Assembly: GCA_032027045.1 (NCBI GenBank)
Contig: JAVSMU010000001.1
Location: 729,846-793,845, forward strand
Direction: 5' to 3'
Source of the DNA: Truepera sp.
GTDB taxonomy: Bacteria; Deinococcota; Deinococci; Deinococcales; Trueperaceae
Length of the DNA stretch: 64,000 nt
A model generated the notes under the pieces. That model saw only the letters and a list, made by a program, of their open reading frames with translations. It had not been told where the DNA came from and ran no database searches. Position numbers and translations under genes: made by a program. This document shows positions 46,886 through 48,963 of the stretch, one piece after another. Each line of letters starts with the position of its first letter. Within the stretch, counting starts at the first letter, position 1.

Positions 46886-47458
46886 CTAGAAGCCCGGCAG
46901 TGGGTCCTGGACCGTGCCGCGGGCGGTGGAAAGGCGTTCGCGCTCGAGCAGCGCCCGCTTCCGGCCGACACCCCAGCGGTACCCCCGGAGGCCGCCGTCC
47001 TTGCCGATCACGCGGTGGCACGGCACGAGGACCGCCACCGGGTTCGCGCCGCACGCGGCCGCCACTGCCCTTACCGCACTGCCAGAACCGATGCGCCGCG
47101 CGAGTTCCGAGTAGGTCACCCGCTCGCCCGGCGCCACCTGCTGCAGGGCCCGCCACACGCGCAGTTGGAACGAAGTGCCTTGCAGGTCGAGGGGCAAACC
47201 GGGCTCGGTCGAGGGATCTTCCAGGACGGCCCTCACGCGGGCAGCGATGCCGGACGCGATGCCGGACGCGACGCCGCTAGGGTCCACCTGGCCGGCGTCG
47301 GCCCGCTCGGCCTCGGGGTAACGGGCGCGGAGCTCTTGGGTGAGTGGCCCCGGCGCATCGCTCAAGGTCAGCGCGCAGATGCCCCGTTCGGTCGTAGCAA
47401 CGAGGAAGCTGCCCAGCCAACACTCGCCCGTGCTGAAGCGAACCGGAGACGGTGTCAT
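46886..47458 (-). CDS. ogt: O6-methylguanine-DNA methyltransferase
   Basis: A 190-residue suicide repair protein that takes methyl groups from O6-methylguanine. The active-site motif is V-P-C-H-R-V-I-G; the helix-turn-helix DNA-binding region (V-T-Y-S-E-L-A-R-R-I-G) and the asparagine hinge region G-A-N-P-V-A-V-L are in place. The start overlaps the stop of the pentapeptide-repeat gene as ATGA, so they are translated together. A glycine-alanine-serine repeat (A-S-G-I-A-S-G-I-A) lies in the linker. Confidence 0.92.
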   Translation of the reverse strand: MTPSPVRFSTGECWLGSFLVATTERGICALTLSDAPGPLTQELRARYPEAERADAGQVDPSGVASGIASGIAARVRAVLEDPSTEPGLPLDLQGTSFQLRVWRALQQVAPGERVTYSELARRIGSGSAVRAVAAACGANPVAVLVPCHRVIGKDGGLRGYRWGVGRKRALLERERLSTARGTVQDPLPGF

Positions 47459-48063
47459 TCGATTATCAACCCGACGGCGAGGAGAACCCCGGCCGCCTCG
47501 GGCAGCGAGACCCGTGCGCCACGAAGGTTGTTGTCCAGGGGCGACAGCACGTAGTTGCGCGACGTGCGCAGGTCGGCGCCGGAGAGGTCGTTGCGGGCGA
47601 ACGTGCAGCGCGCGAAGTCGGTGGCGCTGAAGTCGACGCCGTTGAGTTGGCAACCGAGGAACTCGGCCTCCCAGGCCCTGCAGGCAACGAACGCACAGGC
47701 GGTGAGATCCATGTTCCGGAAGGAACAGAAGCTCAGGTCGCAGCCCTCGAAGGAGGCGTCCGGGACGAGCGGCAACTGGTTGAGGAACTCGAAGCGGACG
47801 CCGCTCAGACGGCAGGTGTCGAAGTGTACGGCGCTGAAGGCCGCGTCCGTCAGGTCGATCATGCCTAGCTCGCAGCCTTCGAAGCGGCAGTCGGAAAGCT
47901 GGGAGTCCTTCAGCGACGCGCCGGTCAGGTCGCAGCGGACGAAGGTGCAGCCGGAGACTATGGCGCCCGCCAGGTTCAGGTCGTCAGCGGTCAGGCCCTC
48001 GAACCTCACAGCGGTATGCCGGGTTGCATGCGAGTAGTCGTGCGCCCGGGACCTACGGGTCAC
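47455..48063 (-). CDS. Pentapeptide-repeat protein (Qnr/MfpA-like outline)
   Basis: A 202-residue protein made of pentapeptide repeats of the A(D/N)LXX kind, e.g. T-F-V-R-C-D-L-T-G-A-S-L-K-D-S, C-E-L-G-M-I-D-L-T-D-A and A-R-C-T-F-A-R-N-D-L-S-G-A-D-L. Such proteins form a right-handed quadrilateral beta helix that mimics B-DNA; some (Qnr, MfpA) protect gyrase. A break in the repeats near the middle (F-E-F-L-N-Q-L-P) matches Qnr length. The GTG start at 48063 is coupled upstream to a short ORF; the 3' end overlaps the alkyltransferase start. Confidence 0.85.
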   Translation of the reverse strand: MTRRSRAHDYSHATRHTAVRFEGLTADDLNLAGAIVSGCTFVRCDLTGASLKDSQLSDCRFEGCELGMIDLTDAAFSAVHFDTCRLSGVRFEFLNQLPLVPDASFEGCDLSFCSFRNMDLTACAFVACRAWEAEFLGCQLNGVDFSATDFARCTFARNDLSGADLRTSRNYVLSPLDNNLRGARVSLPEAAGVLLAVGLIIE

Positions 48064-48125: not shown

Positions 48126-48157
48126 AGGCGCCGCACCCTTTCGTGGGTGCGGCGCCT
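48126..48157 (-). terminator. Hairpin terminator of the small-gene unit
   Basis: A perfect 13-bp inverted repeat (AGGCGCCGCACCC / GGGTGCGGCGCCT) with a 6-nt loop lies 5 bp after the stop of the 81-residue protein gene. A T run is lacking, but the stem is long and GC-rich. Confidence 0.7.
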
Positions 48158-48162
48158 GAGCT

Positions 48163-48408
48163 TCAATGCGCCCTGCCGAGCCCGCCCCGGTGGACCCTTG
48201 GTCTCCCGAGGGCTGCCTTCCAGGCGGTGGCCGCGCGCGCTTCCATCTCGGCGAGCTCGGCCCGGACGGCTTCTAGCGCGGCCTCGCGAGCGCGTTCGCG
48301 GTGATGCGCCCTCACGGCCTTGAGTACGGAGTGGTGAGCGGCTCGAGCCCTAAGGTCGTCTACGCGCTCCAGGCCTGCGCGGAGTTTGGTGTGACTCAGA
48401 TCGAACAT
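48163..48408 (-). CDS. Small basic, helical, histidine-rich protein (81 residues)
   Basis: An 81-residue protein with a predicted long helix rich in alanine, arginine, glutamate and histidine (L-R-A-R-A-A-H-H-S-V-L-K-A-V-R-A-H-H-R-E-R-A-R-E). It is highly charged with a basic end (H-R-G-G-L-G-R-A-H). The ATG has GGGAGGG 7 nt upstream, a strong ribosome site for this genome. It is the second gene of the unit started by the sigma-70 promoter at 48904. No known family is recognised. It could bind nucleic acid or ribosomes. Confidence 0.65.
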   Translation of the reverse strand: MFDLSHTKLRAGLERVDDLRARAAHHSVLKAVRAHHRERAREAALEAVRAELAEMEARAATAWKAALGRPRVHRGGLGRAH

Positions 48409-48471
48409 GTGGTTGCCCTCCCGGGGCGGGGTGGTCCTTGCGTGGGCAACCTCGGACTCGGCTTGGCCTCG

Positions 48472-48618
48472 TCAGCGGTTCGCCCGGTGGTGTAGTTCTC
48501 GGTGTTCTAGCTCGTGCGCGGTTTGTTGATTCAGGGGTTCCACGCTTCGAATGTGCGTGGTCGGAGCGTTGACTGCCCCTAACTCCATGACGTCACGCGC
48601 ATAGGTGTTCGGTGCCAT
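48472..48618 (-). CDS. 48-residue small protein with strong Shine-Dalgarno
   Basis: A 48-residue reading frame from an ATG with AAGGAG 5 nt upstream. The product begins M-A-P-N-T-Y-A-R-D-V-M-E-L-G and ends in a charged, histidine-rich helix (H-E-L-E-H-R-E-L-H-H-R). It lies 63 bp before the 81-residue gene and after a roughly 280-nt structured leader. No known family. The H-E-L-E-H pattern resembles a zinc-protease motif but the protein is far too small for that. Confidence 0.6.
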   Translation of the reverse strand: MAPNTYARDVMELGAVNAPTTHIRSVEPLNQQTAHELEHRELHHRANR

Positions 48619-48897
48619 GACTCTCCTTCCCGGTCCGGTTCTCGGCTTGGGTGGGGACTTGCGGGGCCAGGCGGCTCAGGCGCACCATAGCGGTGCGACG
48701 TGAGGCGCGGGCCTACGGTTTTTAGGGTTCCGTCGTTGGGCGGCGCTCGTGGCCCGGACTCAGGCGCAGCGCGCGGCGAGGCCGATGGCGACCGGAACCG
48801 CCCAACGAACGGAAGTGCTTGCTCGTTCAGTTCTCAATGTCGCTCACCTCCTCACGTCTCGGGCTTGAGCCTCGAGCCTGGGAGTCTCGACTCCCAG
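48619..48897 (-). promoter_or_regulatory. Long structured leader RNA of the small-gene unit
   Basis: A roughly 280-nt 5' leader between the promoter at 48904 and the ATG at 48618. It begins with a 10-bp hairpin, contains a TTG-started upstream ORF (48760-48837), and then inverted repeats 48734-48743 / 48798-48807 (10 bp, perfect). A second pairing, 48726-48732 / 48793-48799 (7 bp), overlaps the first and excludes it. The arm at 48798-48807 lies in the codons of the ORF. This is the layout of a ribosome-position sensor. The leader also has a TTGAGAACTGAAC element (48825-48837), similar to rRNA antiterminator boxA surroundings. Confidence 0.55.
48760..48837 (-). CDS. Leader peptide uORF, 25 residues
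   Basis: A TTG at 48837 opens a 25-codon frame ending in TGA at 48760. AGGAGGTGA (48844-48852), nine bases complementary to the 16S rRNA tail, is well placed for it. The peptide (R-T-E-R-A-S-T-S at its start, then V-R-W-A-V-P-V and L-A-A-R-C-A at its end) is small, basic at first, then hydrophobic. Codons for V-R-W-A-V form one arm of the main hairpin. It is likely to regulate the genes downstream rather than to have its own function. Confidence 0.5.
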   Translation of the reverse strand: MRTERASTSVRWAVPVAIGLAARCA

Positions 48898-48899
48898 GC
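48876..48899 (-). promoter_or_regulatory. 5' terminal hairpin of the small-gene leader
   Basis: A perfect 10-bp inverted repeat (GCCTGGGAGT / ACTCCCAGGC) with a 4-nt CTCG loop lies at the predicted transcript start. A hairpin at the very 5' end usually protects mRNA from decay. Confidence 0.55.
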
Positions 48900-48903
48900 G
48901 GGG

Positions 48904-48932
48904 ACATTAGCAGAGTGGAACCCGCTTGTCAA
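48904..48932 (-). promoter_or_regulatory. Near-consensus sigma-70 promoter of the small-gene unit
   Basis: Minus-strand TTGACA (48927-48932), 17-bp spacer, TAATGT (48904-48909): the closest match to the consensus in the window. An AAGC tandem run (48931-48946) overlaps the -35 region on the plus strand. Confidence 0.85.
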
Positions 48933-48963
48933 GCAAGCAAGCAAGCGGCGGCGGCAAGCAAGC
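48931..48963. repeat. AAGC microsatellite
   Basis: Four AAGC units at 48931-48946 and two more at 48956-48963, split by a GCGGCGGCGG stretch. They abut the -35 box, so changes in copy number would not change the spacer but could move upstream contacts. Confidence 0.75.

Follow-up and report, generated by a model that had tools for sequence, protein, structure and literature searches.

A minus-strand unit in the 64,000-nt stretch of Truepera sp. DNA analyzed here (the window) is probably a small-gene operon under transcription attenuation controlled by a leader open reading frame (uORF). By comparison with related genomes, the unit is a diverged copy of an operon present in 22 Trueperaceae genomes, in which a strong promoter is followed by a short decoy reading frame and then by one or two genes for tiny Arg-rich proteins. 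The proposed control is of a known kind; the products are undescribed. The initial annotation had described a real, leadered and unrecognized minus-strand unit, and we agree that it is leadered, conserved and of no known family; what had been missed is the leader ORF and hence the attenuator reading. The computed parts of this reading are the promoter, the position of the leader ORF, the terminators, the competing stems, purifying selection on the two small genes (ORF2 and ORF3) and the unit-specific promoter block of the relatives. The features of the unit, with window coordinates, are as follows.

48927..48932, minus strand: -35 element TTGACA; the spacing of exactly 17 nt to the -10 element is kept in 22 of 22 aligned units
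48904..48912, minus strand: extended -10 element TGC TAATGT (TAATGT at 48909-48904); TGCTANNNT in 22 of 22 units
48877..48898, minus strand: 5'-terminal hairpin CCTGGGAG..CTCCCAGG, from folding; most relatives have a GC hairpin of other sequence at the same place
48858..48876, minus strand: second small hairpin, from folding
48847..48852, minus strand: Shine-Dalgarno AGGAGG of the leader ORF; GAGGAGGTGAGCGA is identical in G002 and G003
48760..48837, minus strand: leader ORF (ORF1), putative TTG start, 25 codons, MRTERASTSVRWAVPVAIGLAARCA; position and Shine-Dalgarno match the ATG-started leader ORFs of relatives
48728..48814, minus strand: long interrupted stem, from folding, with its 5' arm within ORF1 and its 3' arm past the ORF1 stop codon; geometry as in the antiterminator stems of relatives
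48697..48705, minus strand: CCTCACGTC, complementary to GACGTGAGG (48850-48858), which overlaps the ORF1 Shine-Dalgarno; from sequence and folding
48648..48707, minus strand: stretch rich in C and poor in G that may load Rho; C minus G is 0.23 in 60 nt (p 0.10 versus the locus, a weak signal)
48472..48618, minus strand: ORF2, 48 aa, ending in HHRANR (HHWANR or HWANR in relatives)
48409..48424, minus strand: ORF3 ribosome binding region (GGGAGGGCAACCAC); GGAGGGCAACCAC also in G002 and G003
48163..48408, minus strand: ORF3, 81 aa, predicted single helix 2-68 (AF2 pLDDT 88); orthologues in G001-G004 and G009
48126..48157, minus strand: perfect 13-bp end hairpin with no U tract, from sequence; G001-G003 likewise have long GC hairpins, with no U tract, after ORF3

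The promoter and its conserved block

The TTGACA-17-TAATGT promoter named in the initial annotation is present in the sequence, with TTGACA at 48932-48927, and it is additionally extended by the TGC just before TAATGT. Three sites in the 64 kb match TTGACN-N16..18-TANNNT, and this promoter is the only one to combine TTGACA, a 17-nt spacer and the extended TG. Its ranking as the strongest promoter of the window holds with the TANNNT consensus but not with a strict TATAAT scan, which omits it and favors the tRNA-Met promoter (10/12). The initial annotation had proposed orthologous loci as a check on whether the promoter is kept; because 21 related units share the 17-nt spacing, the TG and the -10 element, and because ORF3 is conserved, the unit is not a product of chance. 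CTTG repeats (GCTTGCTTGCTTGCTTGACAAGC; window 48927-48955, minus strand) run into the -35 box.

Most promoters outside the genus of this genome and G009 carry an extra, partly dyad symmetric block, G.ATA..C.CTTGCATA..C, which overlaps the -35 element. Searched together with the -10 element, CTTGCATA was found once per genome in 16 of 39 genomes (zero with the reversed control), and 14 of these 16 matches are this unit. The block alone matched this unit in 11 genomes; its four other matches are confined to two genomes, lie in AT-rich sequence and look like chance. The promoter block is thus all but restricted to this unit, with essentially one occurrence per genome. This genome and its congeners lack it and have TTGACA-type -35 boxes instead; the genus has lost it.

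A partly symmetric block (G.ATA..C.CTTGCATA) that lies over the -35 element and is essentially restricted to this unit is what would be expected if a DNA-binding repressor were the main control and the leader secondary. We consider this somewhat unlikely, as neither this genome nor its congeners have the block, which may be an RNA polymerase contact; moreover, leader control can coexist with a repressor.

Leader ORF, terminators and competing stems

ORF1 is a third frame, absent from the list of two in the initial annotation. It presumably starts at TTG, and its near-perfect Shine-Dalgarno is the best in the unit. As in uORF-dependent attenuators, a short ORF with its own Shine-Dalgarno lies near the 5' end. 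Because ORF1 sits behind AGGAGG where relatives have an ATG-started leader ORF, an attenuator is the best reading of the leader, rather than merely a structured untranslated region. A leader ORF is present in nearly all of the 22 units, with ATG in the units of the congeners and G009. Its peptide drifts, with scattered pairwise dN/dS values of 0.3 to 2. The individual dN/dS values are rough. Selection leaves the leader peptide largely unconstrained but preserves the small proteins, the pattern to be expected if the leader need only be translated, whatever its sequence.

The relatives have the remaining parts of an attenuator. Twelve genomes, from six genera, have a GC hairpin and then a U run between the leader ORF and the next gene; in 8 of these 12 it lies 22-24 nt past the leader ORF stop. 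If the terminator is barred from closing, its 5' arm instead forms a stem with the final ~10 leader ORF codons, and this stem encloses the stop codon. The minimum free energy of this alternative stem beats shuffles in most of the genomes (Stouffer z -4.9 over six genera); the excess stability is strongest in G022, G015, G021 and G010, while G020/G033 have none relative to shuffles. The folding test was used instead of a search for a contiguous complement of the terminator arm, which was not significant alone. A mutually exclusive antiterminator overlapping the uORF is accordingly seen in relatives, whereas this genome has only a stem of like geometry. Attenuation is not universal in the family, since G017, G025 and G012 are without the leader ORF and the internal terminator.

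In this genome, the 5'-terminal hairpin folds, and the ~279-nt leader is more stable than dinucleotide shuffles (z -2.7, 2/200; second run, z -3.1, 1/200), which bears out the earlier description of a 5' hairpin and a structured leader. Scanning this leader revealed no U-tailed terminator, and there is no U run between the leader ORF and the small genes in the congeners, G009 and G030 either. Since U-tailed terminators in the scanned part of the window are no commoner than in shuffles, their loss from the leader may belong to a genome-wide habit. The C-rich spacer (p 0.10 in this genome, 0.004 in G001 and 0.035 in G002/G003) could serve Rho in this leader, the signal being weak here. With Rfam covariance models at gathering scores, only a tRNA was found in the window, and no riboswitch or leader family.

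Taken by itself, a leader without a U-tailed terminator, behind a consensus TTGACA and starting with a hairpin that would stabilize the mRNA, fits a plain, constitutively expressed operon with three genes for small proteins, of which ORF1 would be the first and in which the hairpins would be stability elements. We regard this as unlikely, given that 12 relatives have U-tailed terminators and competing stems in the ORF1-ORF2 interval and that the sequence of ORF1, unlike those of ORF2 and ORF3, is not conserved.

According to the attenuation reading, transcription would start at ~48897 from the extended -10 promoter, and the leader ORF with its near-perfect Shine-Dalgarno would be translated at once. 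Ribosomes reading the leader ORF to its stop would cover the last codons and block the antiterminator stem, so that transcription would end before the small genes. With an early stall in the leader ORF, or with no ribosome loading, the antiterminator would form and ORF2 and ORF3 would be made. In this genome, the terminator signal would be a changed one, presumably of a Rho or hairpin type.

ORF2, ORF3 and their neighborhood

The 48- and 81-residue frames and the closing 13-bp hairpin of the initial annotation were recovered at the same coordinates, with AAGGAG and GGGAGG as Shine-Dalgarnos of the two frames. That the proteins match no family also stands: searches of Pfam, NCBIfam, PADLOC and PHROGs with the small proteins gave nothing credible, and neither ORF2 nor ten ORF3 proteins matched the Pfam family DUF1127 (YjiS-like). 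ORF2 and ORF3 are under purifying selection. For pairs with enough changes, dN/dS is 0.05-0.27 for ORF2 and 0.15-0.45 for ORF3, with values of ~0.6-0.7 for ORF3 in the pairs G035/G029 and G020/G033; the pairs are short, each value is rough, and very close pairs are uninformative. For ORF3 of this genome against that of the congener G003, dN/dS is 0.31, in line with the earlier expectation that synonymous-site bias would reveal frames conserved as proteins.

Of five congeners sampled, four have an ORF3 orthologue, as does one further genus (G009), and their units have the promoter, the two hairpins, the Shine-Dalgarno and the ATG-started leader ORF at matching places. In G001 and G009, an ORF2 ending in HWANR lies between the leader ORF and ORF3, and a profile of this ORF2 retrieves the same ORF2 in many more genomes of the family. 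The ORF2 of this genome shares the position of its stop codon with that of the relatives; the remainder has diverged, and a profile built without it does not retrieve it. It is a diverged member of a family that is better preserved in relatives. Three further units, retrieved by the promoter alone, have a leader ORF, a terminator and an ORF3-like gene and no ORF2. Profile comparison of ORF3 from this genus with ORF3 from other genera was marginal (23 columns, probability 7%); the link across genera is drawn because G001 and G009 carry both the ORF3 family of this genus and a clear HWANR ORF2.

A tblastn search of plasmids and phages gave nothing credible, and these searches, which were weak, showed no spread outside Deinococcota. 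In the contig search, one congener was the only Deinococcota metagenome-assembled genome among the matches listed; DNA matches outside the genus (e.g., at genome position 780569-780626) look like chance matches of GC-rich coding sequence and were rejected. A second ORF2-like gene, beside a likely transporter gene and with a longer product in which the motif is embedded (..HYWANQPTTV..), occurs in four congeners (G004 C33, G002 C43, G005 C11 and G003 C10; L056-L059), in G002 with a TTCACAAG..CTTGTGAA dyad in its promoter region; none was found in the genome studied here. In G025 (L054), a second promoter of the TTGCATA..TGCTA type and a further small reading frame lie ~350 nt past ORF2.

In 12 genomes of other genera, the unit lies behind proS, on the same strand and with the end of proS 184-495 nt upstream. 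In seven genomes, an ABC-2 type exporter (which we take to be an ATPase and a permease) lies downstream of the unit and on its strand; several of them (among L089, L103, L104 and L105) have a TTGAC.. to TACAAT-like promoter before the ABC-2 exporter or before a further small gene. In this genome, G002 and G003, the unit is near deoA. A gene for a Qnr-like pentapeptide repeat protein, which scores below the NCBI Qnr cut-off (57 versus 240 bits), lies just downstream (window 47455-48063, minus strand) and is near the unit in G003 too. We rejected it as a part of the unit because a hairpin intervenes and the neighbor varies among congeners.

The position behind proS and the several prolines in many leader peptides would fit amino-acid-specific attenuation, e.g., by a prolyl-tRNA sensor, but this is very unlikely: the GC content alone would lead one to expect prolines, the one Pro codon of the G022 leader falls within the antiterminator segment, the genes under control have no biosynthetic role, and the unit is not beside proS in this genome or its congeners.

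Relation to known attenuators

The closest known system is duf1127-1 of Sinorhizobium meliloti, in which a 29-aa uORF in a 279-nt leader precedes the gene for a small Arg-rich protein and attenuation is relieved by tetracycline and chloramphenicol (PMC12218461). The unit shares with it a short uORF close to the 5' end and preceded by a strong Shine-Dalgarno, a leader of ~280 nt, a small Arg-rich protein encoded downstream and, as proposed here, transcription that ends early, past the uORF but ahead of the gene, according to whether the uORF is translated. The two differ in that duf1127-1 has no intrinsic terminator, probably uses Rho and has its key element at the uORF start (PMC12218461), and in that its product is a DUF1127 protein, to which ORF2 and ORF3 have no Pfam match. 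In the whiB7/wblC leader of Actinobacteria, too, stalled uORF translation turns on the downstream gene via transcription attenuation (PMC13236596), but no WhiB is involved here: PF02467 is absent from the whole genome, with a positive control genome, and the products are small helical proteins of no known family. By analogy, the unit would work like duf1127-1 or whiB7 control, with proteins that belong to neither family.

In the amino-acid attenuator of Mycobacterium tuberculosis ilvB1, a ribosome at the stop codon of the uORF covers RNA and thereby prevents the antiterminator, leaving the terminator to form (PMC13236596). We propose the same effect of a ribosome reaching the uORF stop; unlike in attenuators of the ilvB1 type, the leader peptides here share no run of regulatory codons and the downstream genes are not biosynthetic. 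The Escherichia coli toiL-topAI uORF similarly acts as a general translation-stress sensor, but toiL targets the ribosome binding site, with an indirect effect via Rho (PMC12121999), and it has no parts homologous to those of the unit.

For the family, the proposed mechanism is well supported by comparison. For this genome, in which the absence of a U-tailed terminator, the TTG start of the leader ORF, the lost promoter block and a mostly unrecognizable ORF2 count against attenuation, we infer that the same control logic still works, perhaps in a Rho-dependent manner. The signal would be the state of translation, and translation inhibitors would be inducers. From their Arg-rich helices, the ORF2 and ORF3 proteins may bind RNA or ribosomes. 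We tentatively suggest that Trueperaceae have a dedicated translation-stress operon, in which a unit-specific promoter and a uORF attenuator would allow two undescribed families of Arg-rich helical micro-proteins to be made only when ribosomes falter, that these proteins act on RNA or ribosomes, and that the operon evolved independently of the WhiB7 and DUF1127 circuits.

In the literature, no sensor of translation trouble was found described for Trueperaceae. The earlier statement that most other genes in the window are leaderless would agree with published work on the Deinococcota (PMC12340547); in a phylum known for leaderless mRNAs, this operon has a full leader, a conserved leader ORF and competing stems. 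It would follow the same logic as in Alphaproteobacteria, a uORF and then a tiny Arg-rich protein, with proteins of another family. If the unit senses translation, it would provide the Deinococcota with a general switch for ribosome stress, and adding a ribosome inhibitor would be enough to test what two orphan micro-protein families do.
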